Shown here piece by piece: positions 15,344 through 42,814 of a stretch of 64,000 nucleotides of DNA. The DNA comes from Bacteroidaceae bacterium (lineage in GTDB: Bacteria > Bacteroidota > Bacteroidia > Bacteroidales > Bacteroidaceae). Under the pieces are notes generated by a model. It did not search any database and was not told where the DNA came from. It saw only the letters and a program-made list of their open reading frames with translations. How positions within the stretch are numbered: the stretch's first letter is position 1; each line of letters begins with the position of its first letter. Where the stretch lies: the NCBI GenBank assembly GCA_017547385.1, contig JAFYPU010000017.1, positions 62,001 to 126,000 of the forward strand. Direction: 5' to 3'. The translations under genes were made by a program, and so were the position numbers.

Positions 15344-15402
15344 TGCGCAGTGCTTGTAGAAAAATCTGCAGTGCTTGCAGATTTTTCTACAAGCACTGCA
15401 GA
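15344..15402 (-). repeat. 59-bp three-unit palindromic repeat element, copy 1
   Basis: Three 17-bp units start at 15344, 15365 and 15386, an exact 21-bp period with 4-base A or T spacers. The unit core is TCTGCAGTGCTTGCAGA: 6-bp arms TCTGCA/TGCAGA around GTGCT. Unit 1 has a diverged left end. Units 1 and 2 face one way and unit 3 the other, the mirror image of copies 2 and 3. As a whole, 15349-15370 and 15376-15397 form a 22-bp perfect inverted repeat with a 5-base loop. Confidence 0.88.
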
Positions 15403-15479
15403 TTTTTGGCCTTCATATTGTGGCTAGAACAGCCGCCGGTATTATTTCTCTGTCTATGGTCAAATGTGGCTTACTTCCG

Positions 15480-16100
15480 TCAACGCGCATTCAGCTCCAC
15501 GCGGTTAACAATAGAGCGGCCCAGTGTGATTTCGTCGGTATATTCCAAGTCATCACCAATGCTGACACCGCGAGCCAAGACGGTGAGCTTCACTTCGGGG
15601 TGGGCTGCCAGGCGGCGCGAGATATAGAAGTTCGTGGTGTCGCCCTCCATGGTCGGACTCAGTGCCAGGATGATTTCTTTCACCCCTCCCTCGGCCACAC
15701 GCTCCACCAGCGAGTTGAGTTCCAAATCTGCCGGTCCCACGCCGTCCATTGGTGAGATAACACCTCCCAGCACATGATATAAACCTCTGAACTGACCGGT
15801 GTTTTCAATGGAGAGAACCCCTTGAATGTTTTCCACCACACAGATGGTAGAAGCATCACGCATCGGATTGGCGCAGATGTCGCACAATTCTGTGTCGGAG
15901 ATGTTGTGACACGTGCGGCAGAACTTCACATCTTCTTTCAAGCGAATGAGGCTCTCGCCAAGTGCATGCACCGTTTCGTTGCTTTGTCGCAACAAATGAA
16001 GCACAAGGCGCAGTGCTGTTTTGCGACCGATGCCCGGAAGTTTTGAAAACTCTGTAACAGCGCGTTCCAGCAGTTTTGAGGGATATTGTTGACTTGTCAT
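15480..16100 (-). CDS. recR: Recombination mediator protein RecR
   Basis: 206 residues, the usual RecR length. A helix-hairpin-helix ([12 protein letters not shown]) is near residue 20, a C4 zinc finger (C-R-T-C and C-D-I-C) at about 57-72, and a Toprim domain (I-C-V-V-E-N onward) follows. RecR works with RecO (and RecF) to load RecA at gaps. It is monocistronic and faces the HAD gene convergently. Confidence 0.96.
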
Positions 16101-16181
16101 GATGTCTTGATTGGATGAAGAAAAGCGGAGACAGTGTGTGCGCTAAGTATGCGTATGATTGTCTGTCTTGCTAATGCTCTG

Positions 16182-16189
16182 CAAAGTTA
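16182..16189 (-). promoter_or_regulatory. Possible -7 box for recR
   Basis: On the minus strand the sequence reads TAACTTTG, fitting TAnnTTTG, 82 bases before the recR ATG. No clear -33 box is seen. Confidence 0.4.
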
Positions 16190-16270
16190 GTGCAAGGCGA
16201 GTGGAAAACGTGGAAAATCGTTTGCGAATTTTCCAAAGTTTGCCCGAGCCGCAGCCTAAGTTATATAATG

Positions 16271-16303
16271 TTTGTGCAAGGACAGAAAAAATAACTAACT
16301 TTG
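16271..16303 (+). promoter_or_regulatory. Bacteroidetes-type promoter for engB
   Basis: TTTG (16271-16274), 21 bases, then TAACTTTG (16296-16303). It sits about 100 bases upstream of the preferred engB ATG. Confidence 0.6.
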
Positions 16304-16404
16304 CTGCGATAAGTTGGGCAATGGGATGGCAAATAAGCTAACGAATGGTGTTTGCTTTATTTTGTGCTTTCCCTTGCATTAACTTTATAATCAACAAATT
16401 TCAC

Positions 16405-17031
16405 ATGATAGTTAAATCCGCCGAATTTCATATCAGCAACAGTCGCGCCGACCGTTGTCCTGACACCGAAATGCCTGAGTTTGCCTTCATTGGGCGAAGC
16501 AATGTGGGCAAGAGCAGTCTGATAAACATGCTGACCGCTCGCAAATCGCTGGCCAAGACCAGTGCGACACCGGGCAAGACGTTGCTCATCAATCATTTCT
16601 TGATTAACAACGAGTGGTATCTTGTGGATTTACCCGGTTACGGTTATGCCAAACGTGGCAAGCGTGAGATGGAAAAACTCTCGCAAATCATCCAACACTA
16701 TGTGCTCGAGCGGCAACAGCTCACATGCCTCTTCGTGCTCATCGACTCACGCCACGAACCTCAACGCATCGACATGGAGTTCATCGAATGGTTGGGCGAA
16801 AACGGTGTGCCCTTTGGCATTATTTTTACCAAAGCCGATAAGCCTAAGCGCGGTGAACTGAACAACAACGTGAAGCGTTTCATGACACGCATGTCTGAGC
16901 AATGGGAGGAACTCCCGCCGCATTTTGTTACGAGCAGTCAGAGTGGCATGGGACGCGACGAAGTGTTGGGATATGTGGAAGCGGTGATGAATTCGCTCAA
17001 AGCTCCGGCCGAAACTGTTGTTGAAATCTGA
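16405..17031 (+). CDS. engB: Ribosome biogenesis GTPase EngB (YsxC/YihA)
   Basis: 208 residues starting at ATG 16405, where homology begins (MIVKSAEF); an ATG 60 bases upstream adds an unrelated hydrophobic leader. GTPase motifs are complete: G1 [10 protein letters not shown]3 D-L-P-G-Y-G, G4 T-K-A-D-K, plus the switch threonine in S-A-T-P-G-K-T. EngB is an essential GTPase in large-subunit assembly. The kinase gene starts 11 bases after its stop, so the two are probably co-transcribed. Confidence 0.94.
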
Positions 17032-17042
17032 AGTAACTCCTT

Positions 17043-18215
17043 ATGCAGTCCTCCGACCGTATTCGCAATGTGAAAGTGGTGCTCACGCTGGCTGCCGTCG
17101 TGATTGCGGCTGCCTCGTTGGTGGTGTCGCACTTCCTCATTCGCGACTTGCAACGACAGGAACGCAACAACATGGAGGTGTGGGCCGAAGCCATGCGCTC
17201 GCTCAGCCACGCTGATGAAACCACAGACCTCAACTTGGTGCTGAAAGTAATCAACGGCAACAACTTCATTCCGGTGGTGGTTCTTGACGAACGCGGAGCC
17301 ATTACCACTTATCGCAATTTGCAGATTGATGAAGAAACAGCTGCCGATTCGCTTCAAACCTTGCAGCGCATTGTTCAAACGATGAAAGCAGCAGGACGTG
17401 TTATCACTATGGAATTAAGCACGGACCTTGCGCAGGCACCGAACAAGCAAGAACACATTTATATATATTATGATGAGTCTGCCATCCTCAAGCGGTTGGC
17501 TTCATATCCCTATGTGCAATTGGGCGTGGTGGGGCTCTTTGTTCTCATGGCCGGATATGCGCTGCTCTCCTCCAAACGTGCTGAACAGAACAAGGTGTGG
17601 GTGGGACTCTCCCGCGAAACGGCTCATCAACTGGGCACTCCCATTTCGTCGCTGATGGCTTGGACGGAAATGCTGCGCGAAACATATCCAGACGACGAGT
17701 TGTTGCCCGAAATGAGCAACGACGTGAAGCGACTCGAACTCATTGCCGAGCGTTTTTCGAAAATCGGTTCGCAACCCGAATTACGCGAAGTCAATTTGCA
17801 GGAAGTCATTCGCAATGTGGCAGATTACATCTCCCGTCGTGCCAGCGACAAAGTAAATCTCACATGCAGCTTTCCCGATGATTGCACCAAGGTGCGCATC
17901 TGTCCACCCTTGTTTGAGTGGGTCATCGAAAACCTGTGTAAGAATGCCATCGATGCCATGGCGGGCGAGGGCAGCATCACCATCTATGTTTATCATCACG
18001 GCCCACACATCGCCATCGATGTGGCCGATACCGGCAAAGGCATCAGCAAAAAGCATTTCCGCACCGTGTTTCGTCCGGGCTTCACCACAAAGAAACGCGG
18101 TTGGGGGCTGGGACTTTCGCTTGCAAAACGCATCATCGAAGAATACCATGGTGGGCGCATCTTCGTGAAAGAAAGCGATCCCGGTCGCGGTACCACTTTT
18201 TGCATATTGTTGTGA
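17043..18215 (+). CDS. Orphan membrane sensor histidine kinase
   Basis: 390 residues. TM1 is near residues 10-32 and TM2 near 155-175, with a ~120-residue periplasmic sensor domain of no recognised family between them. The H-box has the phospho-accepting His195 in E-T-A-H-Q-L-G-T-P-I-S. The N-box is E-N-L-C-K-N-A-I-D-A-M. The G-boxes D-T-G-K-G-I and W-G-L-G-L-S complete the HATPase. There is no HAMP domain and no response regulator nearby, so its partner is elsewhere. It is probably co-transcribed with engB. Confidence 0.9.
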   Translation: MQSSDRIRNVKVVLTLAAVVIAAASLVVSHFLIRDLQRQERNNMEVWAEAMRSLSHADETTDLNLVLKVINGNNFIPVVVLDERGAITTYRNLQIDEETAADSLQTLQRIVQTMKAAGRVITMELSTDLAQAPNKQEHIYIYYDESAILKRLASYPYVQLGVVGLFVLMAGYALLSSKRAEQNKVWVGLSRETAHQLGTPISSLMAWTEMLRETYPDDELLPEMSNDVKRLELIAERFSKIGSQPELREVNLQEVIRNVADYISRRASDKVNLTCSFPDDCTKVRICPPLFEWVIENLCKNAIDAMAGEGSITIYVYHHGPHIAIDVADTGKGISKKHFRTVFRPGFTTKKRGWGLGLSLAKRIIEEYHGGRIFVKESDPGRGTTFCILL

Positions 18216-18263
18216 AAAAGAACAGGCTGCCGTTTGTGAAATTTCAGACATATAAATAAATAT

Positions 18264-18302
18264 AGAGAAGCCGTTCACGAATCATTCGTGTGCGGCTTCT
18301 CT
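18264..18302. terminator. Hairpin between convergent kinase and ttcA-like genes
   Basis: AGAGAAGCCG (18264-18273) pairs with CGGCTTCTCT (18293-18302), and an inner CACGAA/TTCGTG extends the stem. T-tracts are weak on both sides. Position suggests a shared terminator. Confidence 0.6.
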
Positions 18303-18368
18303 GTATTGAAAATCATTTCCGATTTTCAAGCAAATCGGTAAGGGATAACATAAAAAGGAAACGAAAAA

Positions 18369-19115
18369 TTATTCCGTTTCCACAAGTTTGCCCTCTTTCA
18401 GTAGCGCATGCCACAAGTTCTGTCTGAATTCGGGCGCAAAGCGGCAGAGTTGTTCAAACTGCGTTGCAGCTTCGGTGCGTCTGCTTTCCTTTTCGTGCGG
18501 ACAGCGTTTCACTTGTTTCACATAATCATGTTGCTTTGCCAAGAAGGCGATGTCGGTTTCGTGCTCCAAGCAAAGAGGACGGATGATGCTGATGGGAAAT
18601 TTGCGCATGCGGAGCAAAGCCGGCATGGTGCTGAACGTGCCATTGAACGAGAGGTTCATGAGTGCCGTGTGCAAGATGTCATCTTGATGGTGGCCGAGGG
18701 CAATTTTGTTGCACCCTTCGGCTTGTGCGGTTTCAAAGAGTTGCTTTCTGCGGTTCCACGAACAAAGAAAGCATGGTGTACGACGGCTGTTGCGGTCGGC
18801 TTCAAAACTTGCTGTGCGTACCAGAAGCGTTACGCCGCATTGCGATGCCATATCTTCCAGATAGGACGTGTCGGTAAGGTAGTCGATGCCTTGCATTCTG
18901 ACATGCAGGGCTTTCACTTCAAACTCGAAAGGGCAACGCCGCCGATAGTCTGCCAAGAGTTCGAGAAGCGCCAACGAATCTTTGCCGCCCGACAATCCCA
19001 CGAGCAATCTGTCTCCGGGTTCTATCAGACCGAATTGGCGCACGGCTTCAGCAAAACGACGTTTGACGCGCTGCTCTGTGCGATAGGCTTCAGTGAGTTT
19101 GAGAGGTTGGGTCAT
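18369..19115 (-). CDS. ttcA: TtcA-like PP-loop tRNA 2-thiocytidine synthase
   Basis: 248 residues. The PP-loop ATP pyrophosphatase motif G-L-S-G-G-K-D-S is at about 39-46. A C-F-L-C pair lies at about 115-118, and an L-G-H-H-Q-D-D motif is present, all as in the TtcA/TtuA group. The enzyme thiolates a tRNA base using an Fe-S cluster and sulfide. It overlaps the upstream DMT-like gene by four bases. Assignment to TtcA, rather than a related PP-loop thiolase, is likely but not proven. Confidence 0.82.
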   Translation of the reverse strand: MTQPLKLTEAYRTEQRVKRRFAEAVRQFGLIEPGDRLLVGLSGGKDSLALLELLADYRRRCPFEFEVKALHVRMQGIDYLTDTSYLEDMASQCGVTLLVRTASFEADRNSRRTPCFLCSWNRRKQLFETAQAEGCNKIALGHHQDDILHTALMNLSFNGTFSTMPALLRMRKFPISIIRPLCLEHETDIAFLAKQHDYVKQVKRCPHEKESRRTEAATQFEQLCRFAPEFRQNLWHALLKEGKLVETE

Positions 19116-19480
19116 TTCATGAAAACAAAATAGACGGCAGCCACAAGGCAGGCAAAGGCGGCTATGTGATTCCAGTGGAAAGTTTCACTTTTGAAGAAGA
19201 GCGTTACGATAACTGTGAACACGATGAGCGAAACCACTTCTTGTATCACCTTGAGCTGAATGAGCGAGAACGGACCTCCGTTGTCCACAATACCGAGACG
19301 ATTGGCGGGCACCTGACAAATGTACTCGAAGAGGGCAATTCCCCAAGAGAAGAGAATGACGAGCATCAAGGGCCAATGTTTGCTGACACCCGTTTCCTGA
19401 AGTTTCAGGTGGCCGTACCAGGCAAAGGTCATGAAGATATTTGAACAAATGAGCAGCAGAACGGAATAGATACCTTGCAT
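19112..19480 (-). CDS. DMT-superfamily small membrane protein (DUF486)
   Basis: 122 residues starting at ATG 19480 (MQGIYSVLLL); an upstream ATG (19525) adds a non-hydrophobic leader. Four hydrophobic helices with F-E-Y-x-x-Q-V-P-A-N-R and G-x-F-S-L-x-Q-L-K-x-I-Q-E match the DUF486 family, related to drug/metabolite transporters. The substrate is unknown. It overlaps the TtcA-like gene by four bases (ATGA). Confidence 0.85.
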   Translation of the reverse strand: MQGIYSVLLLICSNIFMTFAWYGHLKLQETGVSKHWPLMLVILFSWGIALFEYICQVPANRLGIVDNGGPFSLIQLKVIQEVVSLIVFTVIVTLFFKSETFHWNHIAAFACLVAAVYFVFMK

Positions 19481-19621
19481 ACGTATATATATAATATGTA
19501 TATGAGCGTTTGAAAAGTGTTTCAAGAATAAGAAAGATTGGGAAGGGAGTTCGTGCAGCGCATCGGCAGCACTTGCACATCCGTTCTCAATCTTTCTTCT
19601 TCAAGGATTAAGTTTCAGAGA

Positions 19622-21982
19622 TTATTTTCCCGACAATCGTTGATGCATGGCGGCAGCTGCACGCTTGCCATCGCCCATTGCCAAAATCACGGTGGCACCG
19701 CCGCGAACAATGTCGCCACCTGCAAACAGGGTGGGGATGTTGCTCTGCATGTCTTCGTTCACTGCGATAGTGCCCTTGCGTCCCAGTTCGAGGCCTTCCA
19801 CTGATTGTGGAACGATGGGATTGGGCGATACGCCGATGCTGACCACCACCAAGTCGGTGTCGATGGTTTCGATGGCACCTTCCACAGGAACCGGACTGCG
19901 ACGACCGCTGCTGTCGGGCTCGCCCAACTCCATGCGCTGCAACTTCACTTGTTTCACGCGGCCTTTTTCGTCGGCGATATACTCGATGGGGTTGTGCAGT
20001 GTCAGGAATTGCACGCCTTCTTCCTTGGCATGATGAACTTCTTCGAGGCGAGCCGGCATTTCCTCCTCTGAACGGCGATAAACGATGGTGGCTGTTTCTG
20101 CTCCCAGACGCAGTGCCGTGCGCACAGAGTCCATGGCGGTGTTTCCGCCACCCACCACCACAACATTGCGACCCATAGGGATGGGTGTGTCAGTGGCTTC
20201 GTTAGAAGCGTCCATGAGGTTGACGCGCGTCAGATACTCGTTGCTGGACATGATGTTGATGCTGTTTTCTCCGGGAATTCCCATGAAATTCGGCAGACCT
20301 GCCCCCGAGGCTACGAAAACGCCTTGGCAACCCTCGGCCTCCAATTCGGCAATGCTCAGCGTCTTGCCTACGATGCAGTCCTTCACAAACTTCACACCTG
20401 CAGCTTCGAGGTTGTTGATTTCAAAGTCGACGATGCTGTTGGGCAAACGGAATTCGGGAATGCCATACTTGAGCACACCACCGATTTCGTGCAAGGCTTC
20501 GTAAACGGTAACATCGTAGCCGTGTTTCACCATCTCACCTGCAAATGAGAGACCGGCAGGTCCTGAACCTACCACGGCCACCTTAATGTTGTTCTTTGCT
20601 GCGGGTGTGGCAGGCACTGCAAGGTTGTTTTCGCGTTCGTAGTCGGCGGCAAAACGTTCCAAGTATCCAATGGCCACGGGTTGGCTTTCGGTTTTGTGAT
20701 GAATGCATCGGCTTTCGCACTGCTTCTCTTGCGGACAAACGCGACCGCAGACAGCAGGCAGCGCACTTGTTTCTTTAATGGTGGCAGCGGCTCGGGCAAA
20801 TTCGCCCAACTCGATGTGCTTCACAAAGCGAGGGATGTCAATTCCAACGGGACAACCTTCGACGCAACCGGGATTGGCGCAATCGAGACAACGGCGTGCT
20901 TCCTGCATCGCTACTTCTGCCGTAAGACCGCGGTTCACCTCTTCTTTGAGTTGGTGAGCGCGGTATGAGGGTTCGAGTTCGTTCATTTTGCAACGCTCGA
21001 TGCTCATGCGTTCTTTCGGCTTCATGGCAGCACGCACAGCCTTGCGCCATTCGGCATCGCGGCTCTTGCAGGCTTCACTGTCGTTGCAAGAAGCGATACC
21101 CTCTGTGCCTTTGGCAGTGTTTTCGGTGAGTTTTTCTGATGTTGTTTCTTCGGGCTCGATGACTGTGAGGTCCTTATGGGCCATTTCATATTGTTCCTTG
21201 TCGCGGAAAGCAGCCATGCGGCTCAGCATTTCGTCGAAGTCCACCTGATGACCGTCAAACTCGGGTCCGTCCACACAGACGAAGCGTGTCTTACCGCCCA
21301 CGGTGATGCGGCATGCACCGCACATACCGGTTCCGTCCACCATGATGGTGTTGAGCGAAACGTCTGTGGGAATTTCGTATTTCTTTGTGAGCAGACATAC
21401 AAACTTCATCATGATGGCAGGACCGATGGCGAAACATTTGTCTACGCGTTCGCGCTTAATCACGTCCTCGATGCCTTCGGTAACCAAGCCTTTGCGACCA
21501 GCCGAACCATCGTCGGTCATGATGATCACTTCGTCGGACGAGGCACGCATCTCTTCTTCCAGAATGATGAGGTCTTTGCTGCGACCGGCCAAAACGGTAA
21601 TGACGCGGTTACCTGCCGCTTTCAATGCTTGCACAATGGGGAGCATGGGTGCCACTCCCACGCCGCCGCCGGCACATACCACGGTGCCGAAGTTCTCGAT
21701 GTGTGTGGCTTTTCCCAACGGGCCTACCACGTCTGTGATGTGGTCGCCGGCTTCCAGATGGCATAACTTGGCAGACGAGAGTCCCACGGCTTGCACCACC
21801 AGTGTGATGGTGCCGCGTGAGGGGTCGGCTTCACAAATGGTGAGCGGAATGCGTTCGCCGCCTTCGCCCACACGGACAATCACAAAGTGTCCGGCTCGGC
21901 GTGAGCGTGCGATGAGCGGAGCTTCTACCACGAGTTTGAACACTTTCTCTGAGAATTGTTCTTTGGCTATAATCCTGTTCAT
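19622..21982 (-). CDS. Fused ferredoxin-NADP reductase alpha subunit and GltD-like subunit (NfnAB-type)
   Basis: 786 residues from ATG 21982; an ATG at 22057 adds 25 unrelated residues. The N-terminal ~290 residues are a ferredoxin-reductase/DHODB electron-transfer module with FAD motif R-I-P-L-T-I and a [2Fe-2S] cysteine set around G-M-C-G-A-C. The C-terminal part is glutamate-synthase small-subunit-like: Fe-S motifs C-L-D-C-A-N-P-G-C and C-G-R-V-C-P-Q-E-x-x-C, then FAD site V-G-S-G-P-A-G and NADPH site G-G-G-N-T-A-M-D. In other anaerobes these are two proteins, the bifurcating NfnA and NfnB. Bifurcation is inferred from homology. No glutamate synthase large subunit is nearby. Confidence 0.88.
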   Translation of the reverse strand: MNRIIAKEQFSEKVFKLVVEAPLIARSRRAGHFVIVRVGEGGERIPLTICEADPSRGTITLVVQAVGLSSAKLCHLEAGDHITDVVGPLGKATHIENFGTVVCAGGGVGVAPMLPIVQALKAAGNRVITVLAGRSKDLIILEEEMRASSDEVIIMTDDGSAGRKGLVTEGIEDVIKRERVDKCFAIGPAIMMKFVCLLTKKYEIPTDVSLNTIMVDGTGMCGACRITVGGKTRFVCVDGPEFDGHQVDFDEMLSRMAAFRDKEQYEMAHKDLTVIEPEETTSEKLTENTAKGTEGIASCNDSEACKSRDAEWRKAVRAAMKPKERMSIERCKMNELEPSYRAHQLKEEVNRGLTAEVAMQEARRCLDCANPGCVEGCPVGIDIPRFVKHIELGEFARAAATIKETSALPAVCGRVCPQEKQCESRCIHHKTESQPVAIGYLERFAADYERENNLAVPATPAAKNNIKVAVVGSGPAGLSFAGEMVKHGYDVTVYEALHEIGGVLKYGIPEFRLPNSIVDFEINNLEAAGVKFVKDCIVGKTLSIAELEAEGCQGVFVASGAGLPNFMGIPGENSINIMSSNEYLTRVNLMDASNEATDTPIPMGRNVVVVGGGNTAMDSVRTALRLGAETATIVYRRSEEEMPARLEEVHHAKEEGVQFLTLHNPIEYIADEKGRVKQVKLQRMELGEPDSSGRRSPVPVEGAIETIDTDLVVVSIGVSPNPIVPQSVEGLELGRKGTIAVNEDMQSNIPTLFAGGDIVRGGATVILAMGDGKRAAAAMHQRLSGK

Positions 21983-22193
21983 TGTTTCTATGTGTGTGTT
22001 TGTAAATTCTTGATGAGGGGTGAGCCATGTTCCTTGTGTTTCCAGAAGCGAATTCATGGTTACTTATGGGGCGTGAAACCCTTGTGTGTTAACCTAAGCT
22101 TCGTTTCCTATTGGGAGAGCTCGTTGATGGAAAAAGCATCGGCAGTCCTTGCTTTTTGCTATCATTTTGCTGAGATTGTTCTCAAATCGGCAG

Positions 22194-22201
22194 CAAAATT
22201 A
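22194..22201 (-). promoter_or_regulatory. Possible -7 box for the NfnAB-type gene
   Basis: Minus-strand TAATTTTG fits TAnnTTTG, about 210 bases before the start codon. The -33 position shows no TTTG. Confidence 0.35.
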
Positions 22202-22300
22202 CATATTTTATTTAATAATAAGTATGCGCGCGTGAAGTTTGTGCCGTGCTTTTCGCTTGCATTGTGTGAGGAGCGCAGGAGTTGTGATGCTTCGAAGCAA

Positions 22301-22332
22301 CTCCGAGGGTGGGAGAGACCACGCCGTCGGAG
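22301..22332. other. GC-rich hairpin candidate in intergenic DNA
   Basis: CTCCGA (22301-22306) and TCGGAG (22327-22332) enclose a second pairing of GTGG with CCAC, giving an interrupted 10-bp stem. It could be a structured leader or chance. Confidence 0.35.
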
Positions 22333-22386
22333 CATGTAAAGCATCCCCACTACTACCTGCAATAGCTGCTTGCGCGAGGACGAAAA

Positions 22387-22445
22387 TCTGCAGTGCTTGC
22401 AGATTTTTCTACAAGCACTGCAGAAAATTCTGCAAGCACTGCAGA
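22387..22445 (+). repeat. 59-bp three-unit palindromic repeat element, copy 2
   Basis: Units begin at 22387 (TCTGCAGTGCTTGCAGA), 22408 (TCTACAAGCACTGCAGA) and 22429 (TCTGCAAGCACTGCAGA): period 21 bp, 4-base A/T spacers, orientation +, -, -. Same architecture as the copies at 15344 (inverted) and 42756. Confidence 0.92.
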
Positions 22446-22766
22446 TTACACCCCCCTTCGCATGTGCGGATAACGCCTCTGTAAGCCCATTATTTTGCAA
22501 CGCAATAGCAGAAGGGAACAAAAGCCTCTGAAGTGTGCAAGAAAAGTGTTAAAATGTTGCATGATATTCGCAAAAAAGTTTGAATTGTGAAAGAAAAAAC
22601 TCAAATTCCTTTTTTCAGTTTTCAAGAATATCCGATATTTGCCTTACAATTATTCACCTACAAATGTCGAAATGCTGACAAAATGACGGAAAAGCAGCTG
22701 CAACGTTCATCAAAGCAGGCATGAGACGAAAAGTGGGACATTTATTAATACTTAAAGGATACAACC

Positions 22767-23615
22767 ATGAAACGAGTGCTTTTATCTTTTGCTTTATTCC
22801 TTGGCCTGTCCTTGTCGGTAAGTGCCATGAGTTATGAAGAAGCCCGTCAGCAAGCTTGGTTCTTGACGGACAAAATGGCTTACGAACTGAATTTAACTCC
22901 GGAACAGTATGACCGGGCTTATCAGGTGAACCTTGATTATTTGATGAGCATCAGAACCGCTTCAGATTGCTATGGTCATTATTGGAACTACAGAAATGCA
23001 GATTTTCGTTGCATTCTCTTCGATTGGCAATACACGCTCTACAGCACCATTGAATACTTCTTCCGTCCTGTGCGCTGGGTGAGTTCCGCATGGTATTACC
23101 CTGTGTTCGACCACTATTGCCGAGGCTATTATTACTTCAGCCGCCCCACGGTTTACGTGAGCTATCGCGGAGTGGGTTGGCACAACCGCGGACACAATGA
23201 TGTGAGTCCCTATCACGGCATGTCGTTCCGCCATGGCAACGGAATGCGTGATCACTATCACGGCAGACATCATCAAGGACATCACGGTGGCAGACCTTCG
23301 CATGGTCGTCCCGACTATAAACCCTCGCATGGTGGACAGCATAATGGTGTACGCCCCGACCATGGCAACGGAAGACCCGGCAGCAATGCACGTCCCGGTG
23401 GCGGAAGCAATGTGCGCCCCGATCACAATGGTGGTCGCCCCGGTGGAAATCATTCAGGCTCGTCCGTGGGTTCTTCAAACAGAGGCGGAAATCGTGGAGG
23501 CAGCTCGGTGCGTCCCTCTTCAGGAGGAAGTTCATCTTCACGCGGTTCTGCCACACGCGGTAGCGGCAGTTCGCAACGCGGACACAGTGGCGGTGGACGT
23601 TCATTCGGACGATAA
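22767..23615 (+). CDS. Exported protein with long His/Gly/Arg/Ser-rich tail, function unknown
   Basis: 282 residues. A signal peptide ends at S-V-S-A (about 20). Residues ~21-125 form a compact domain rich in Tyr and Trp, starting with a helical E-x-x-R-x-x-A-x-x-x-T-D-K-M segment and L-x-L-T-x-x-Q, a pattern reminiscent of CpxP/Spy-like helices. Residues ~128-282 are low complexity: first His/Gly/Arg-rich (H-G-R-H-H-Q-G-H-H-G-G), then Gly/Ser/Arg-rich. The His tract suggests metal binding, but no family is recognised. It has its own terminator. Confidence 0.8.
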   Translation: MKRVLLSFALFLGLSLSVSAMSYEEARQQAWFLTDKMAYELNLTPEQYDRAYQVNLDYLMSIRTASDCYGHYWNYRNADFRCILFDWQYTLYSTIEYFFRPVRWVSSAWYYPVFDHYCRGYYYFSRPTVYVSYRGVGWHNRGHNDVSPYHGMSFRHGNGMRDHYHGRHHQGHHGGRPSHGRPDYKPSHGGQHNGVRPDHGNGRPGSNARPGGGSNVRPDHNGGRPGGNHSGSSVGSSNRGGNRGGSSVRPSSGGSSSSRGSATRGSGSSQRGHSGGGRSFGR

Positions 23616-34191: not shown

Positions 34192-34197
34192 TTTGTT

Positions 34198-35994: not shown

Positions 35995-36084
35995 GAACGA
36001 AATGAAGCTACTTTACTACTGTATATTATATAAGAGATAAAGTGTAGAATTGTCTTGAGAGGAAAAGCTGTGGTGGCGCGGATT

Positions 36085-36564
36085 TTATAACTTTTCAATC
36101 AACACTACGGCATAAGCTGATATACCTTCTTTCCTTCCTGTGAAACCAAGCTGTTCGGTGGTGGTGGCTTTGATTGAAACATCTTCTTCATCAATGTTCA
36201 TCAACGGAGCCAATACTGATTTTATGGACGGGATGTGAGGATTGAGTTTGGGCTGTTCGGCACAAACAGTGGCATCAACATTGCCAATGGTGTATCCTTT
36301 TTCTTTGAGCAAACAGGTGGTACGCTGTAAGAGGATTTTGCTATCAATACCGGCAAATTCTTTTCCTGTATCCGGAAAATGATAACCAATATCGCGAAGG
36401 TTTGCAGCTCCAAGCAGGGCATCACAAATGGCATGAATCAGCACATCTGCATCACTATGACCCAGCAATCCATGGGTGTGCTCAATGCGGATGCCTCCCA
36501 GCCAAAGGTCGCGGCCTTCAACAAGTTTGTGTACATCAAATCCTAAACCGGTTCTTAATTTCAT
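36085..36564 (-). CDS. ispF: 2-C-methyl-D-erythritol 2,4-cyclodiphosphate synthase
   Basis: 159 residues, normal for IspF. The zinc site is in G-x-D-V-H-K (G-F-D-V-H at the start) and H-S-D-A-D-V-L-x-H; the later G-Y-H-F-P-D-T and the T-T-T-E-Q-L-G-F-T-G end are complete. It catalyses the fifth step of the MEP isoprenoid pathway. It lies 54 bases after porV. Confidence 0.97.
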   Translation of the reverse strand: MKLRTGLGFDVHKLVEGRDLWLGGIRIEHTHGLLGHSDADVLIHAICDALLGAANLRDIGYHFPDTGKEFAGIDSKILLQRTTCLLKEKGYTIGNVDATVCAEQPKLNPHIPSIKSVLAPLMNIDEEDVSIKATTTEQLGFTGRKEGISAYAVVLIEKL

Positions 36565-36618
36565 GGCAATGAACTATGTGAGAGAGGTGAGAAAGTCTGT
36601 ATAAAATAAATGAGTTTA

Positions 36619-37776
36619 TCAACGACGGCCGAAGAGGTCGCGAATTCCGTCAAAGTCGAAGCCGAGTGAAACGCGCAAAGTTTGGTCCAAAGGATTGCTG
36701 GGAGAGGTGGCCACCACGTAGCCGGCATCAATGTTGAGCACACTCATGCGAAAACCGGCACCCACGGTAAAATACTTTCGGTTACCTTGCATCTCGCTTT
36801 CGTGATGATAGCCGGCACGTAAAGAAAACTTGTCGTTGTAAGTATATTCGGCACCTACGCTCCACTGTATTTCTTCCATTTCTCCTTTGAAGCCACGTTC
36901 AGAATCACCAAAGCTTTTGAAAATTCCGGAGATGGACGAAACATCATAATAGTCCTTTCGGATACGTTCTTCATAGTCTTCGTTGCTTTCGTCTTCGCCT
37001 TGCAAAGGTTTGGAGGGAACAAGCAGTTTGTTGACGTCGGCATAGAATGAAATTTTGTTATATTCGTTCAAAGGCATTGTGTAGCCAAGACCGATACGCA
37101 GATTGGTCGGGATGAAATAAGAATAATCCTCTCCATAGTTGATTTTACTGCCGATGTTGCTGATGTTTACACCAAAAGAGAGCAAGCACTCACGGTTTCC
37201 CATCATGACATAGTTGTTGTAATAGCAAGCAAGGTCTGCAGCAAAAGCAGAACCGGCAGTAGTGTTGTCATCATAATGTCCGCTCAGGTCGGAATACATA
37301 TAACGTAAGGCAACTGCTGCCGAAAAAGTTTCACTGAGCATTCGCGAATATGCCACATCCACAGACATTTCGTATGGCTTCACTATCATATCGGTGGCTT
37401 GCACTTCGCCCAATGTGAAATAGTTGACCGAAGCACTCACAGCCTGATAGTCGCCAATGCGTAAGTATCCCGACAAGTTGGCCAACGCAATACCATCGGT
37501 GAGAGAACGAAGCCAAGGAGTGTAATTGACAGACATACCTGCACGACTGATGGTGAAAGGATACTTTGCCGGATTCCATTTCTGTGAGTTGGCATCCGGT
37601 TCGGTGGCTGCACCAATATCACCCATCGAACCGGCACGTGCATCAGGGGCAATGCTTTGAGACGTTACGGCGGTCATCACCGGATTAAATTGGTCTTTAA
37701 TTTCATTTTGTGCCATTGCGGGCAAGGCAATGATTGTTGCCAAAGCCAAGGAGAGATATGTCTTTTTTGTTGTCAT
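36619..37776 (-). CDS. porV: Type IX secretion outer-membrane protein PorV (LptO)
   Basis: 385 residues: signal peptide (M-T-T-K-K to A-M-A-Q), then a FadL-like 14-strand beta barrel with repeated aromatic girdles, ending F-D-F-D-G-I-R-D-L-F-G-R-R. The opening P-D-A-R-A-G-S-M-G-D-I-G-A-A-T motif is characteristic of PorV. PorV shuttles substrates from the Sov translocon to the PorU attachment complex. Next to porU, the classic arrangement. Confidence 0.95.
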   Translation of the reverse strand: MTTKKTYLSLALATIIALPAMAQNEIKDQFNPVMTAVTSQSIAPDARAGSMGDIGAATEPDANSQKWNPAKYPFTISRAGMSVNYTPWLRSLTDGIALANLSGYLRIGDYQAVSASVNYFTLGEVQATDMIVKPYEMSVDVAYSRMLSETFSAAVALRYMYSDLSGHYDDNTTAGSAFAADLACYYNNYVMMGNRECLLSFGVNISNIGSKINYGEDYSYFIPTNLRIGLGYTMPLNEYNKISFYADVNKLLVPSKPLQGEDESNEDYEERIRKDYYDVSSISGIFKSFGDSERGFKGEMEEIQWSVGAEYTYNDKFSLRAGYHHESEMQGNRKYFTVGAGFRMSVLNIDAGYVVATSPSNPLDQTLRVSLGFDFDGIRDLFGRR

Positions 37777-37892
37777 CGATTGGGATTTTGTTATGTTATT
37801 TATGAAGATGTGAGAAATTCTTCCCCGATATATTCTAACGAAAAAGATTTGTCTTTATTGTTTGATGAATGCGATAAAAGTTTGTTTGAAGC

Positions 37893-40800
37893 TTAATAAC
37901 GCTGAATAATCAGTTTCTTTGCTTCTGTTTCCTTTTCGCCTCCGTTCCATTTCACTTTTGAGCGATATAGATACAAGCCACCGGGCAAAGGCTTACCTGT
38001 TGATTGGGTGAGGTTCCACTGAATACTGCTGTAGCTCACCGGTGTTTCATGCGTTGTGGTATGACTCCACATTAATTGACCGGACAGATTGTAAACTTCG
38101 TTAGTAACGCTGCACCCATCAAGCATTTCTTCCTGTGGCAGATAGGTGATGAATGTGGTAGATACCTGTGCCGGATTTTCTGTAGCCACTACCTCGAAGG
38201 ATTGAGGTGCATCTCCCACATTGAACTTCAGATATTTCATTGTGGAATTACCGTTCACGTCCCACACCTTGAAACTGAGAGTGTGCCGACCGACATTCAG
38301 TCCTGTCAATTCAAAGGTTGCCCGTCCTTGTTTGTAGCTTCCGGCATCAAAACTGAAGTTCTCATTAAGGGTATAAACATTTGTACCATTATCAATGGAA
38401 AGTTCCATTTCGCGACCGCTATTGCCGGCTGTTGTGTTAATACCGAAATCGTCGGAAATTTCAGCTACGAAAAGTGCAGATGTTCCCACTGTGCCTCCAT
38501 CGGGGAAGTCCGGTTGATTGAGATACACATACACTTGCGGAGAGAGTGTGTCCGGCTGCACCATTTCGGCAGTACCATTCAGGCAGAACGTTTCACAAAT
38601 TCCACTGTTTTCTTTTCGTTTGTCCTCACTGACGGCATACAGAGACAGACGAGCTGCATCTGAACTGTAGCTGATATTGTAAGGAATAATCATATTGAAC
38701 GAAAAACGTCCGCTGACAACAGAGTCATTGCCCTGAATTAGGGGAGTTCCTCTGTCCTGGTAAACAAATGCAGAGCCGGAGTTCTTATTGTTTTTACAAA
38801 CCACGTCGCGTTCTCTGTCATAGAGTGTTGCGGTAAGCAATCCTGTGAAATCTGTGTCAGTTTCCTTGCTTGAAGTAAGAGCACGACCGCTGAAACGTAC
38901 CAGTTCGCCGGCTTTGAGTGTTATTATTTCTCCTGCACTCAGAGTTTGGCCATTGATGCTGTCGATAACCAATTCTCCTGTTGGAATTGCCAAAGTCAGT
39001 GCCGGATCTCCCAATAATGCATATTTCATTTTGTTCATGGTGCGGTCCGAACCTGTTACCATTTCGTTTTTTGCCAAGCGCATAGCATCGCCCATGGTAT
39101 ATCGTCTGCCTTGGGCATCGCTACCGAGAACGTATTTGCAGAAAGCCGAGTTAAGACTATTATTGTATGAAGCATAAACAGCTCGTGAAGCACACATGAA
39201 AGCAATGGCGCCTCCTGCCTTGTTAATAAGTGCTGTGCGGCTGATATTGTCAATTTGGGTGTCGTAAGGCGAGATTTCGCATGAGGCCAACACCCACAAC
39301 ATCATGTTAGGCGAGGCGTAAGTGGCAAAATCCTCCAAAGCTAAAATTCGGCTTTTAGACAATTGGCGAGGATCTCCGTGTCCGCTATAATTCATCATGA
39401 CTGTTCCTTTTGTCATTGTCTCTCGCAGAATTTCCGTAGCTTCGGGACATCTGAAACCTGTTGCGGTGATGGTAGGTGGATATGCATCCCAATACACTTT
39501 TTTCAAGTCGATGCGCCCTTGTGATGCAGACGTGATGGTCTTAGCTACGTTTTCTGCATCATTCATGTGCTCGTTGTAGTCGCCGTCATCTCCCAAAAGG
39601 CATACTTTGTTTTTCCAATTTCCCACGTGTTCGCCTCGCATATAGCTGATGGCCTTGTTCACCAAAATAGCAGCACTCGCAGCATCATGGCAGGGGAAAC
39701 GACCGATGCCGAGATCCACTTTTTCATTGACAATGTTGGTGCCTTCACCGTCGTCAAGCAGTCCGAAATAATCATCGGTTACGTAGCTGTAAATGGTGCC
39801 GACAATCGAATCGTTACCATTGGCCTCGTATGAGGGTAAGAAATCCTTTGGCGAAAATCCCTTCCATTCTTCCGTTTGCATGCGGTTGTCATTGGCACAA
39901 TCGCCAAAAAGGAGCAGATAGCGAGGTGCATCATCCATGGTGGCAGCTCGGTCATACAGCATCTTCAAATATCGACGGATGGCTGTGGCGTCCGGTGAGC
40001 CACTGGAGAACTCATTATAAATCAAATCAGCTTGCACCACTTTCACCCTGAGTCCCTGCAGTGAGCGATGGGCTTCAGCCAGACGCTCTGCCTCTTCGTT
40101 CAGCATGCCCGATGGTGGTGTTATTATCACCATGTCAAGTTCTCCATCTGCATGCAGATTCTGGTTACTCACTTCACCCACCATTTTGGGCGAAGGGTAG
40201 GTGGCTTGCGTGTTCACGATGACATATCGCTCGTTTCCGCCAGCGACAACCACCTCCAAACGGTCTCCCTGAAGTGTTCCTTGCATTTCTGCCATAGGGC
40301 TTTCGTTGGTCCCTAAGCGCCAGACCTGCGTGTGAGCGTTGGCTCCGGCAATGTGTAATCGCAGTGGAGATGTTACGTCCGGATAGCTGAAAAAGTAGGC
40401 ATCTTGTCGTGCATCCAAGCGTCGAGGATAGCTGATACGTATAAAGTCAAGCCTTGACGAAGCATCTCCCGATGCAGCGAGCTTCACCGATGTCTCCTCA
40501 GCCGTTAACGGAACAGAATACAAGGTTTGTCGCACGCGAGCATCACCCACAGACGAAGAGATGGCAGGTACACTGAAACGTGCCAAGGTGGCTCCGTTGA
40601 CCTGAGGTTGAACCGTTGTGCTACGTGATGAAGCAGCTGCTCCCACGGCTATGGTTAATGCGGAGGGGTGAGAATTAGTGATTCCCGGTGTGGGCAGTTT
40701 GAATGTCTGTGAGCTTACAGCGGATAAGTCTTGACTATCAAAGAATAAACGTCCCCCTTGATACCACGAGAAAACATCGTGTTCTCTCAATGCCCGACCG

Positions 40801-41717
40801 CTGCACAACGTTGTATCTGTTGCAATGGCAGCTTTCACCTCATCTTGCGATAATGCCAAAGGGGCATCGCCCTCAGTCAGGAAATAATATGACTCTGTGG
40901 TATAGAGGTTGGGAACGTGCTGCCAAGCTTTCCGACGTGTGTCCCATTCCCAGCGCTCCTCACCATGCGAGAAAAAGAGCACGGCATCACTACGCCGAAA
41001 CAATGGCACCTCTTGCAAATCGTCTGTCGGCAATTGGCCATCAGCGAAAGGCAAGACTTCAGGCAAGAGTGTGCCGCCATAACCAAAAAGCTTTACGCGT
41101 GCCGGGTCTTTGAACCCCATGTTTGATAATTGTGTGTGTGTCAACTGATAGATACCCTCGGCCGGTACTGAGATTTTCACCCAGCGTCCCGTGTGCAACA
41201 CCGACTGTCGGGCATATCGTTCCGTGCTGCGAGAGGTTACTGGTCTGTTGCGAGTTGCAGAGAAAGACGTGTGTCGCACCGTCAGTTTGCCACTTACCAA
41301 GCGAAGCCAACGCCCCTCTTGGCACACAATGGGAGTCAAGCGCACGTCAAGCATAGTTTCCCCACGGGAGCTTCCCACCCACCATTCGGGCTTCACCATC
41401 GCTGTGGGAACATACCCCATGCGTTTCAACTGACGAACTTCGCGTCGCGACAAAGGGGCGTATTCAGGAAACTCCACCACCACTTCAATTTCATGTGTTG
41501 CAGTGTGCTGTGGGAGGCCTTTCAAACTTGTTTCGTACACAGGTATTTCGCCGGCAGCAAGTGCTGTTGAAATCTCGGGCATCAAATGGAATTTATCAGG
41601 CATTTCTTGGGCTGACACGGCAGACCACAAGCACATCGTAAGGCCAACAAGCACCCCACGGAAGCTCGCTCCTCTCAAGCCGAAGCATTTCATAAGTGTT
41701 ATATTGCAGACTTTCAT
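37893..41717 (-). CDS. porU: Type IX secretion sortase PorU (C25 gingipain-like)
   Basis: 1274 residues. An internal start at 41693 gives a better signal peptide (MKCFGLRG to S-A-V-S-A-Q). The middle is a C25 caspase-like domain with catalytic His780 (N-Y-S-G-H-G-D) and Cys813 (L-A-S-C-E). Ig-like domains follow, and the protein itself ends in a type-A sorting domain (G-G-L-Y-L-Y-R to I-I-Q-R-Y). PorU cleaves the sorting tail of cargo and attaches it to A-LPS. Its substrates should include the LRR proteins of this window. Confidence 0.96.
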   Translation of the reverse strand: MKVCNITLMKCFGLRGASFRGVLVGLTMCLWSAVSAQEMPDKFHLMPEISTALAAGEIPVYETSLKGLPQHTATHEIEVVVEFPEYAPLSRREVRQLKRMGYVPTAMVKPEWWVGSSRGETMLDVRLTPIVCQEGRWLRLVSGKLTVRHTSFSATRNRPVTSRSTERYARQSVLHTGRWVKISVPAEGIYQLTHTQLSNMGFKDPARVKLFGYGGTLLPEVLPFADGQLPTDDLQEVPLFRRSDAVLFFSHGEERWEWDTRRKAWQHVPNLYTTESYYFLTEGDAPLALSQDEVKAAIATDTTLCSGRALREHDVFSWYQGGRLFFDSQDLSAVSSQTFKLPTPGITNSHPSALTIAVGAAASSRSTTVQPQVNGATLARFSVPAISSSVGDARVRQTLYSVPLTAEETSVKLAASGDASSRLDFIRISYPRRLDARQDAYFFSYPDVTSPLRLHIAGANAHTQVWRLGTNESPMAEMQGTLQGDRLEVVVAGGNERYVIVNTQATYPSPKMVGEVSNQNLHADGELDMVIITPPSGMLNEEAERLAEAHRSLQGLRVKVVQADLIYNEFSSGSPDATAIRRYLKMLYDRAATMDDAPRYLLLFGDCANDNRMQTEEWKGFSPKDFLPSYEANGNDSIVGTIYSYVTDDYFGLLDDGEGTNIVNEKVDLGIGRFPCHDAASAAILVNKAISYMRGEHVGNWKNKVCLLGDDGDYNEHMNDAENVAKTITSASQGRIDLKKVYWDAYPPTITATGFRCPEATEILRETMTKGTVMMNYSGHGDPRQLSKSRILALEDFATYASPNMMLWVLASCEISPYDTQIDNISRTALINKAGGAIAFMCASRAVYASYNNSLNSAFCKYVLGSDAQGRRYTMGDAMRLAKNEMVTGSDRTMNKMKYALLGDPALTLAIPTGELVIDSINGQTLSAGEIITLKAGELVRFSGRALTSSKETDTDFTGLLTATLYDRERDVVCKNNKNSGSAFVYQDRGTPLIQGNDSVVSGRFSFNMIIPYNISYSSDAARLSLYAVSEDKRKENSGICETFCLNGTAEMVQPDTLSPQVYVYLNQPDFPDGGTVGTSALFVAEISDDFGINTTAGNSGREMELSIDNGTNVYTLNENFSFDAGSYKQGRATFELTGLNVGRHTLSFKVWDVNGNSTMKYLKFNVGDAPQSFEVVATENPAQVSTTFITYLPQEEMLDGCSVTNEVYNLSGQLMWSHTTTHETPVSYSSIQWNLTQSTGKPLPGGLYLYRSKVKWNGGEKETEAKKLIIQRY

Positions 41718-41777
41718 ATCGTTTTCGTGTATGTAATAATAGGTGAGGGGAGGGAGTGTGCATGGACCGAGGAATCC

Positions 41778-42395
41778 TTACTTCACATCAAGCCGCAACA
41801 CACGGCCACCATCGAGCCAGCCCTCAATGCGTGTTCCGGGTTGAACGGGCAACGCAGCAGTCAGTGCACCACACAACAAGCGGTCTCCTTGTCGCAACGT
41901 GTGAAACCTACTGATATGCGCCAACGCAGAGTGAACATGTTCTTTCCACCCTTGTGTTGTCCCTTCAGCCACGGTTTTGTCGTTCAGTCTCAATTCGCAA
42001 GTATGTTCTTCCAATGGTTGAACGTCAATGGGCCACGCTGCCCCCTCTGCCACAGAGCCCTCAAAGCCCATGGCTGCGCCCCAGGGAGCCCCCGACGAAC
42101 GTGCCTCTGCCAATAACTTCTCGGCAGTGAACACCACTGCCAAAGTTGGTTCAGCATGATAGCGATGGGCAAAACGCGGTGAAATAGCGCGTCCCAAACG
42201 TCCCACACGCACAGCCAAATGCAAACTTACTGAGCATGGCTCGGCAAAGTCCGGCACAAACATGGGCCAGCCCTCGCGTAATAATGCAGAGTCAGGCAAC
42301 ACACCGAAGGCACATCCTTCCATATTTTTAAACGAGAAAAAGCCCTCATTATTGTTCTCTGAACCGTAGGGGCGATGTAGCACAAACATTTTCAT
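41778..42395 (-). CDS. Degenerate fumarylacetoacetate-hydrolase-fold protein
   Basis: 205 residues from ATG 42395 (MKMFVLHRP). The layout follows short FAH-family proteins: P-D-F-A-E-P-C-S, then V-R-V-G-R-L-G-R-A-I, R-F-A-H-R-Y and a C-terminal L-R-x-G-D. The acidic metal ligands usually found in E-x-E and in the later G-I-D-x-T-A-R motif appear replaced (L-H-L and V-V-F-T-A-E), so it may be inactive or altered. It precedes porU by 60 bases on the same strand. Confidence 0.65.
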   Translation of the reverse strand: MKMFVLHRPYGSENNNEGFFSFKNMEGCAFGVLPDSALLREGWPMFVPDFAEPCSVSLHLAVRVGRLGRAISPRFAHRYHAEPTLAVVFTAEKLLAEARSSGAPWGAAMGFEGSVAEGAAWPIDVQPLEEHTCELRLNDKTVAEGTTQGWKEHVHSALAHISRFHTLRQGDRLLCGALTAALPVQPGTRIEGWLDGGRVLRLDVK

Positions 42396-42755
42396 GTCTG
42401 CAAAGGAACACATTTTTTTTGGAGCGTAAAACAAAACAAGGTTAACAAACATAACACATGGTGAGTTAAGGTTTAGTGATTTGTATTATGATTTTGTGTG
42501 TTTATCCCAAGCCATAGGCTCTTTTGAACAACATTTCAAAATATTGAGGTGGGAGAGTGAACGAAACGAATATGCATGCGCTTGTAAAGCAGTGCTTACT
42601 GTTGTTTATCTTAATATGTTGTGATATATTTACATTAACGAATGTTTCCTTGTATATTGATTTACAACTATTTTCTATACTTTGAAGATTCTTTTCCCTT
42701 CTTGATATTACTCAATCAAAACATTTCGAAACATTCTATGCGCGATGGGCCTTTA

Positions 42756-42814
42756 TCTGCAGTGCTTGTAGAATTTTCTGCAAGCACTGCAAAAAAATCT
42801 ACAAGCACTGCAGA
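42756..42814 (+). repeat. 59-bp three-unit palindromic repeat element, copy 3
   Basis: Units begin at 42756 (TCTGCAGTGCTTGTAGA), 42777 (TCTGCAAGCACTGCAAA) and 42798 (TCTACAAGCACTGCAGA): period 21 bp, orientation +, -, -, identical in plan to copy 2. Confidence 0.92.

Follow-up and report, generated by a model that had tools for sequence, protein, structure and literature searches.

Intergenic elements built of three 17-bp dyads at an exact 21-bp period are dispersed over the genome of the Bacteroidaceae bacterium studied here (G000), a relative of Alloprevotella, in an estimated 200 copies, an observation larger than is visible within the window, the 64,000-nucleotide stretch of DNA that was analysed. 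We favour the reading, with a probability of about 0.45, that these elements are phased docking sites for a putative sequence-specific protein, probably an architectural one. Although interspersed palindromes of bacteria were recognised decades ago, there is to our knowledge still no consensus on what they do. Two syntenic species, one with an estimated 200 phase-locked copies, allow the evolution of the units to be measured against fourfold sites and against flanks at the same locus. Together with congeners in which the geometry is retained but spelled in other letters, they make the question of "selfish repeat or chromosome site" a testable one.

Three elements in the window

The initial annotation had reported three 59-bp elements, each composed of three 17-bp units at an exact 21-bp period with 4-bp spacers of A and T, the first between convergent genes and the other two between divergent genes. 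Every part of this description was reproduced, the gene context being taken from gene calls, at the following positions.

Element 1, 15344..15402, minus strand: units A-, A-, A+ at 15344-15360 (2 mismatches), 15365-15381 and 15386-15402, with 4-bp A/T spacers
Element 1, setting: flanked by the convergent genes 14322-15041 (+) and 15480-16100 (-)
Element 1, nested palindrome, 15347..15399, no strand: 24-bp arms, 5-bp centre at 15373, 0 breaks
Element 2, 22387..22445, plus strand: units A-, A+, A+ at 22387-22403, 22408-22424 and 22429-22445
Element 2, setting: flanked by the divergent genes 19622-22057 (-) and 22827-23615 (+)
Element 2, nested palindrome, 22385..22447, no strand: arms of 29 positions with two breaks, 5-bp centre at 22416
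Element 3, 42756..42814, plus strand: units A-, A+, A+ at 42756-42772, 42777-42793 (1 mismatch) and 42798-42814
Element 3, setting: flanked by the divergent genes 41778-42395 (-) and 43159-44139 (+)
Element 3, nested palindrome, 42756..42814: arms of 27 positions with two breaks, 5-bp centre at 42785

For the gene context we ignored a weak call (score 9) at 42799-43017, whose span includes the end of element 3. With up to 2 mismatches, TCTGCAN5TGCAGA has 14 matches in the window against 4.6 expected, a number reached by none of 100 shuffles. Scans of the window returned no Rfam family at gathering score and no tRNA or tmRNA.

Units, register and nested symmetry

The units fall into two families, A and B, both of which are, by inspection, 17 bp long with TCT/AGA ends and are joined by A/T spacers. 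A search of the whole genome for the 17-mer, as had been recommended, yielded 202 exact copies. Across 590 kb of this genome, 195 units with up to 2 mismatches were found, versus none in one first-order Markov control, and 190 of them sit in three-slot elements. The initial annotation had named single units and loose spacing as evidence against a selected structure; in these 590 kb, only 5 of the 195 are out of register, and all 123 spacings of less than 110 bp between neighbouring units equal 21 bp.

A higher-order symmetry was missed at first. Slot 1 pairs with slot 3, and slot 2 with itself, so that the three dyads make up a single palindrome, nested and about 69 bp long. As a rule, slot 1 is the inverted complement of slot 3, and the two covary: in the 46 elements of the form B-..B+, complementarity at positions 5-13 is never broken, even though positions 6, 7 and 10 are variable. 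The middle slot is a self-dyad in random orientation (B-A-B+ in 12 elements versus B-A+B+ in 11), and its orientation agrees in 16 of 25 orthologues, versus 15.4 expected. Because the outer units are inverted relative to each other, the middle-unit states (-,-,+) and (-,+,+) are reverse complements, and the shared relative orientation that the three copies show once copy 1 is inverted is uninformative. A fixed orientation likewise fails as a sign of selection, the middle unit lying equally often either way.

Outside the three slots, A/T tracts are seen again at -26..-22 and, less clearly, at -47..-45; CTGACACTTTG (up to 2 mismatches) lies at position -41 exactly, and on a single side, in 39 of 114 elements. 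The outer flanking slots, U0 and U4, are not inverted complements. Growth of the array like an onion, by nested insertion, is not supported by the complementarity of U0 and U4 (5.30 of 17 positions, below the 5.85 of shuffled slots).

Hairpin template switching would account for the inversion of the middle unit as well as for the strictness with which slots 1 and 3 pair. The elements might be replication by-products, in which tandem slippage and such switching make and mend palindromes of about 21 bp that have no function. This would also fit the finding of similar periods with many different letters. However, it leaves unexplained the near-single consensus across copies and the exact 21-bp register, as well as the over-dispersion in two species, the slot 1 type memory and the slow unit evolution described below, and we regard it as very improbable.

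Dispersal and gene context

In the stretches read, an intergenic gap holds at most one array, and the mean separation is 6-16 kb. None of 99 distances between neighbouring elements is below 1.7 kb. The minimum distance exceeds that of simulations in all four stretches tested (p 0.0003, 0.031, 0.011 and <0.0004), while the coefficient of variation of the spacing is significantly low in just two of the four. Over-dispersion is seen in G000 and in its sister species, G162, and was not seen in the congener G187 (8 elements).

Among 68 elements in the 590 kb of G000, 67 lie between well-scored genes (37 co-directional, 20 divergent and 10 convergent) and one at an edge; for comparison, intergenic bases are 60% co-directional, 28% divergent and 12% convergent. 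Long gaps in G000 are occupied most often when divergent (19/29), followed by co-directional (28/59) and convergent gaps (2/7); the values for G162 are 9/21, 16/44 and 3/7, respectively. Short divergent gaps (130-300 bp) are seldom occupied in either species (1/13 and 0/7). In G187, elements occupy 2 of 40 divergent gaps (2/23 long, 0/17 short), 15 of 78 co-directional gaps and 8 of 30 convergent gaps. Three of 48 elements in G162 fall within well-scored gene calls.

The elements might also be bidirectional intrinsic terminators or other RNA hairpins, with their long stem set between runs of A and T. The mean RNA folding energy is about -34 kcal/mol per 69 nt on both strands, an A run stands before the stem and a T run after it, as in a terminator stem-loop, and the elements lie a median of 64-69 bp past stop codons. 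The avoidance of divergent gaps in G187, and of short ones in G000 and G162, points the same way. Where genes converge, a terminator-like hairpin apart from the element is rarer in gaps that hold an element (7 of 36) than in those without (34 of 80), a comparison made over a shorter searched stretch; in co-directional gaps, by contrast, such hairpins are equally frequent (16/63 with an element versus 41/153 without). Terminators are expected after genes and not in divergent gaps, yet the long divergent gaps are the most occupied in G000, and 9 of 21 hold an element in G162. Except in G187, placement thus weakens this explanation, and we consider it improbable.

Comparison with the sister species

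G000 and G162 differ at 32% of 21167 fourfold sites. Nonetheless, of the 29 G000 elements of a syntenic block, 25 have a counterpart in the corresponding gap of G162; two weak G000 matches, with 12 and 13 mismatches across the three slots, were not counted among the 29. Type and orientation are kept in 53 of 75 orthologous slots, which differ at 1.47 of 17 bases (9%), versus 7.8 and 7.0 of 17 (41-46%; ungapped comparison) for U0 and U4 on either side of the element. Ten of the 75 slots changed type and 12 flipped. The type of slot 1 is kept per locus in 21 of 25 cases, versus 12.6 expected (p 0.0002); the memory of slot 3 is weak (p 0.11). Slow evolution of the units relative to their flanks, together with the type memory of slot 1, suggests that the units are under selection. 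Of the signs of selection put forward in the initial annotation, the fixed period stands and selection on the unit sequence is supported, whereas fixed orientation is not.

The main rival is that the elements are a non-autonomous mosaic repeat of the BIME/NIME type, spreading at present or in the past by transposition or copying and by now largely fixed, with the units as recognition hairpins of a lost or unrecognised transposase. We hold this to be possible. It would fit the high copy number, the intergenic location and the mixing of two unit types, the replaced unit letters of congeners, the type changes among orthologous slots, and the one-sided motif at -41, which resembles the end of a polar element. 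In addition, one gap that lacks the element in G162 is about 110 bp shorter there. On the other hand, the conservation of 25 of 29 gaps argues against it, as does the -41 motif, which stays on the same side in 9 of 13 orthologous pairs. Alignment of five gaps occupied in one species revealed no clear target duplication, although intergenic divergence makes this test weak.

Nor is a cognate transposase linked to the units. The search for a RAYT-type enzyme, which had been proposed, gave a sole Y1 match in G000, with no unit (up to 2 mismatches) within about 1.5 kb; one B-like 17-mer with 3 mismatches lies near this Y1_Tnp, inside a gene. The Y1 locus of G162 carries no unit, its best 17-mer having 5 mismatches. 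No Y1 match was found in G142, G187, G195 or G181 (the genomes examined for Y1 are 76-95% complete), yet G142 and G187 have arrays. A RAYT/REP driver is weakened by this lack of linkage.

Congeners and other taxa

Noncoding arrays with a period of 21 or 22, mostly of other letters, occur in 16 of 26 sampled genomes of the genus, and these two are the commonest noncoding tandem periods between 17 and 40 bp in the sample. From one congener to another, the letters of the unit are wholly replaced. Shared spacing with different letters is a hint of a DNA-binding or chromosome-organising function. Between G000 and G187, 53 neighbour pairs are conserved; three have gaps of at least 150 bp in both, one of them with an element in G000 only.

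The generic pattern matched 22 stretches in genome contigs: seven belong to Alloprevotella OH1205_COT-284, four to RGIG4240 and 11 to other taxa. Those of the other taxa are 21-bp tandem repeats selected by the pattern itself and were set aside; six lie in open frames of more than 400 bases, and some show inner symmetry above chance. Alloprevotella sp. OH1205_COT-284 is an array-bearing named record that is not marked as a MAG, and the strain may be in culture. Viral carriage was rejected: of 32 viral stretches matching the generic pattern, all of them inspected, none has an A or B unit and 31 have the match inside an open frame of at least 204 bases. One viral stretch, L119, has three similar dyads within an open frame of 1056. 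Listings of the open-access literature gave no description of elements of this kind for Prevotella, for Alloprevotella or for Bacteroidetes in general.

Elements as proposed phased docking sites

In the docking reading, several protein dimers would occupy the 17-bp dyads, arranged about the central one and separated by A/T tracts; because the dyads are two helical turns apart, the dimers would share one face of the DNA. This reading draws on the exact register, the slow evolution of the units and their conserved positions, the pairing of the outer slots, the A/T tracts in phase beyond the array, the gene context and spacing of the elements in G000, and the commonest periods of the congeners. 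The middle unit lies between inverted copies, so its free flipping is expected, and its orientation would be immaterial. About 200 arrays might then serve the chromosome, by bridging, supercoil anchoring or the like, and not single genes. Protein binding is predicted here; the architectural role is likewise putative, and the binding specificity of the protein would have changed between congeners. Among the options first offered (multi-site protein binding, a REP/BIME mobile element, and a nucleoid or condensin site), putative docking is favoured, and a RAYT-driven REP has lost ground.

Several observations speak against docking. The wholly changed units of congeners would demand fast co-evolution; slots change type and flip, which a site bound at its locus does not need; and slots 1 and 3 could be kept paired by hairpin template switching, with no selection involved. 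The absence of over-dispersion in G187, the low coefficient of variation in only two of four stretches and the weak memory of slot 3 count against it as well, as do the nearly empty divergent gaps of G187, the seldom occupied short divergent gaps of G000 and G162, and the three G162 elements inside gene calls.

A wider form of the docking reading, which we think rather unlikely, is a genus-wide system of chromosome architecture that keeps the 21- or 22-bp dyad geometry and the intergenic placement while the DNA specificity of the protein is replaced in each species. If so, geometry and not letters would be the conserved trait, and the arrays would be a bacterial counterpart of the fast-evolving sites of centromeres and recombination hotspots.

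Comparison with known systems

In plasmid iterons and tandem operators of the ArgR type, too, neighbouring sites share one helix face at a distance of about 21-22 bp. These mark one origin or one regulon, whereas the present arrays lie in an estimated 200 gaps. As for the terminal inverted repeats of MITEs, slot 1 is the inverted complement of slot 3; U0 is not that of U4, and one third of the elements have a one-sided outer motif.

REP/BIME elements are extragenic imperfect palindromes in more than 100 copies, with regularly spaced alternating units and a proposed chromosome role, and BIME-2 binds gyrase (PMC2817692 and PMC6379681). The present elements are likewise high-copy extragenic imperfect palindromes. 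However, no RAYT flanked by units was found and inspection revealed no unpaired GTAG or CGTC tag, and here there are mostly three slots in an exact 21-bp register, with slots 1 and 3 paired across the middle. The dRS3 dyad has constant ends and a variable core (ATTCCC N8 GGGAAT) and occurs in intergenic mosaics; the CGTC class to which it is assigned seems to be without a dedicated transposase (PMC3898611 and PMC3733652). The Neisserial intergenic mosaic elements resemble the present ones as short dyads in mosaics between genes; the present ones differ, by inspection, in their 17-bp unit, TCT..AGA ends, 21-bp period and nested palindrome. A further parallel is the Escherichia coli gyrase motif, with BIME-2 as a strong gyrase site (PMC6379681). 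The motif spans about 130 bp with a composition that is helix-phased on both sides of a centre, and is degenerate with a 10.75-bp period; the present arrays differ in their 21-bp period and high sequence identity.

Copy number and register

The initial annotation had described three 59-bp elements in the window, each made of three 17-bp dyad units (slots 1-3) at an exact 21-bp period, and all three are present as reported:

15344-15402, three-unit element
22387-22445, three-unit element
42756-42814, three-unit element

The units belong to two families, A (TCTRCAAGCACTGYAGA) and B (TCTAAACGCC(TT, GT, GA or GC)GYAGA). The window corresponds to C4:62001-126000 of the source genome (G000; assembly of 2.35 Mb in 34 contigs, 86.5% complete). 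A pattern search of this whole genome returned 202 exact matches to TCTRCAAGCACTGYAGA, and 0 to the reversed pattern. In the 590 kb read from this genome (all of contig 4, with 220 kb from contig 9 and 196 kb from contig 26), 195 A or B units were found with at most two mismatches, as against 0 in one run of a Markov control. The units were placed neither singly nor at random, 190 of the 195 lying in the three-slot register and 5 outside it. Successive units less than 110 bp apart were spaced by 21 bp in 123 of 123 cases, which bears out the period claimed from three copies. With 69 exact A units for 68 elements in this stretch, the genome is estimated to hold about 200 elements.

Other repeats occur in the same genome. 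A second family of dyad arrays, its TTATCATGCGCATGATAA-type units recurring every 22 bp, lies outside the window (C9:127335; C4:183, 14627 and 24773). Direct tandem repeats of ~84-86 bp (GCAAAGATAGTGCAAGGCGAGCGGAGAAC...) adjoin several elements (C9:96232, C26:47913 and C26:154225, and L089:2691, that is G162:C9:32691, in a sister species). Their reverse complement contains TATCTTTG, which resembles a Bacteroidetes -7 promoter box, and they are possibly duplicated promoters. A 77-bp periodic repeat with CRISPR-like spacing was seen close to a contig end (C4:173718-174045). A lone Y1 transposase gene (L031, C21:50998-54333) is followed 3' by a 24-bp inverted repeat pair (locus starts 1185 and 1371) unrelated to the A and B units.

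A nested palindrome

A and B have one half in common (A = TCTRCAAG-C-ACTGYAGA; B = TCTAAACG-C-CTTGYAGA), and the second half of B is the complement of TCTRCAAG, a half of A. Anatomy was compared over 116 elements, 68 from G000 and 48 from the sister species G162, which are partly orthologous and hence not independent. The slot types were B-A-B (51), A-A-A (34), A-A-B (17), B-A-A (9), A-B-A (4) and B-B-B (1). In most elements slot 3 is the inverted complement of slot 1; in a few, all three units have the same orientation. Complementarity of slots 1 and 3 was 14.1 of 17 positions versus 12.3 with shuffled partners (0/2000 shuffles), and 15.9 versus 14.6 (0/2000) in the 46 B-..B+ elements, where positions 5-13 were complementary in 46/46 despite variation at 6, 7 and 10. 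The excess was weak in the 25 A-..A+ elements, being matched by 84/2000 shuffles. Slot 2 is a dyad in itself, and with the outer pair it forms an inverted repeat in which a mean of 25 of 32 arm positions are complementary, versus 8 by chance. The outer slots of such a nested palindrome could be repaired by hairpin template switching, so that their covariation alone is no proof of function. That the elements as a whole are by-products of replication we regard as very improbable.

Outside the array, in-phase A/T tracts occur at -26 to -22 and, weakly, at -47 to -45. The motif CTGACACTTTG (at most two mismatches) stands at exactly -41 in 39 of 114 elements, always on one side and never both (18 left, 21 right); it is absent from all three window copies (at least four mismatches).

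Placement between genes

Counted against well-scored genes, the 68 G000 elements comprised 37 in co-directional, 20 in divergent and 10 in convergent gaps, plus 1 at an edge (intergenic bases 60, 28 and 12%), and the 48 of G162 comprised 26, 9 and 8, with 2 at edges and 3 inside gene calls (bases 64, 25 and 12%). With all gene calls used, 67 G000 elements gave 36 co-directional, 19 divergent and 8 convergent, with 3 more in short, weak calls and another 1 at an edge. Long divergent gaps were often occupied (19/29 in G000, 9/21 in G162) and short ones seldom (1/13 and 0/7); in a relative, G187, divergent gaps were almost empty (2/40). Distances below 100 bp were found to 30/52 gene ends and 8/74 gene starts in G000. 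One-sided changes at unit positions 1-4 and 14 run in both directions, from which neither RNA strand would appear to be singly favoured. That the elements act as transcription terminators is, in our estimate, distinctly unlikely.

In four stretches tested, no gap held two elements. Their minimum distances (2316, 1736, 7043 and 3818 bp) exceeded simulated medians of 671-1721 bp (p = 0.0003, 0.031, 0.011 and <0.0004), and only contig 9 and G162 had a significantly low coefficient of variation of spacing. In a separate count, none of 99 neighbour distances fell below 1.7 kb. Over-dispersion was not seen among the 8 elements of G187.

Comparison with the sister species

G162 (matching record JAFTXN, Bacteroidaceae bacterium RGIG4240, from roe deer colon) has both unit families and shares ~170 kb of synteny with G000 at 85% nucleotide identity. 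Of the 29 G000 elements in this block, 25 are matched by a G162 element in the corresponding gap and 4 are not; 1 G162 element lacks a G000 partner. Among 75 orthologous slots, 53 kept type and orientation, 12 were flipped and 10 changed type. Mean ungapped differences per 17 positions, irrespective of type, were 2.7, 3.4 and 2.2 in slots 1-3, and 7.8 and 7.0 in the flanking slots U0 and U4. The 53 unchanged slots differed at 1.47/17 positions (8.6%), 17 being identical, and fourfold sites at 32% (6789/21167, 117 genes); this comparison is a stronger argument for function than the covariation of slots 1 and 3. Type memory was clear in slot 1 (21/25 versus 12.6 expected, p 0.0002) and weak in slot 3 (19 versus 15.8, p 0.11). 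Slot 2 kept no memory of orientation (16 versus 15.4 expected), and the nested palindrome explains its free flipping. The -41 motif (at most three mismatches) and its side were common to 9 of 13 pairs with the motif in either species.

Locus memory and slow unit change argue for selection at each locus, and not recent copying from other loci; slot 1 above all carries this, our chief inference. Geometry, pairing, placement and rates are observed. The reading that we favour, at a probability of roughly 45%, is that the elements are phased docking sites for a candidate DNA-binding protein, probably architectural. Such a protein would dock on the phased dyads, and its specificity would turn over between congeners.

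Other letters at a near-constant period

Of 151 genomes drawn from the family, only G000 itself contained the exact unit; G162 was outside that draw. The letter-free pattern AGA-W4-TCT-N11-AGA-W4-TCT was found in 6 of 58 genus genomes (112 matches in G000, 57 in G162, 28 in G142, 7 in G187, 2 in G195 and 1 in G181), and its three-unit form in 2 of 301 family genomes, both of this genus. The unit of G142 (matching Alloprevotella sp. OH1205_COT-284) is TCTACTCGTTACTTAGA, in direct arrays, some longer and reaching contig ends. Those of G187 are ACAAGTGTAGTCCCAGA, TCTATCGCAGCGATAGA and TCTGGGACTACACTTGT; GGACTACACTTGT has 107 copies there, 1 in G179 and 0 in 56 others. Many inverted pairs in G187 lie at 46 or 67 bp, quantised by 21, and one direct pair at 22.

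Noncoding stretches of 26 genus genomes were surveyed for arrays with neighbours at least 80% identical, and arrays with a period of 21 or 22 turned up in 16. The samples of six genomes (G000, G162, G187, G142, G195 and G181) were taken at known or partly known arrays; 10 of the remaining 20 had one, and 3 of those 20 samples lay near Y1_Tnp matches. None was found in the mostly small samples of G099, G155, G175, G157, G064, G199, G190, G170, G198 and G082; G190 has weaker 21-bp repeats, and the repeats of G155 sit in open frames. Period 21 accounted for 76 arrays in 13 genomes and period 22 for 23 in 9 (21 and 14 arrays without G000, G162, G187 and G142). Within 17-40 the next periods were 24 and 26, with 7 each; shorter ones of 12, 13 and 16 were also common, and some arrays in G152 look low-complexity. 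Units of different letters recur at 21 bp in G015, G114, G185, G181 and G043, and at 22 bp in G128, G182, G188, G191 and G043. That a chromosome-architecture system spans the genus, its dyad geometry kept and its protein's DNA specificity replaced from species to species, seems to us unlikely. The period may extend outside the genus, since 20 kb from each of five other family genera gave three period-22 arrays, in two genera.

Dispersed, partly inverted repeats that have CGCCCCCATTAG cores and short tandem runs of the GCGTTTGGTGCTT type were seen in G064 (L181 and L182, contig 15; 11 copies in 40 kb). Tandem 21-bp repeats also occur in cyanobacteria (L092, L104, L106, L111) and Thermoanaerobaculia (L101, L102, L105), their units having inner symmetry above chance (1.76-2.75 of 5 pairs versus 1.25).

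Relation to known repeats

A search of open-access papers found no description of these elements. The nearest known kinds are BIMEs and NIMEs (PMC2817692, PMC3733652, PMC3898611, PMC6379681; also PMC5771137). The elements differ from BIMEs in that our tests found neither the RAYT link nor the tag; the resemblance lies in their copy number, their placement and their mosaic composition, and a mosaic repeat without a RAYT is a possible, if somewhat doubtful, account of them.
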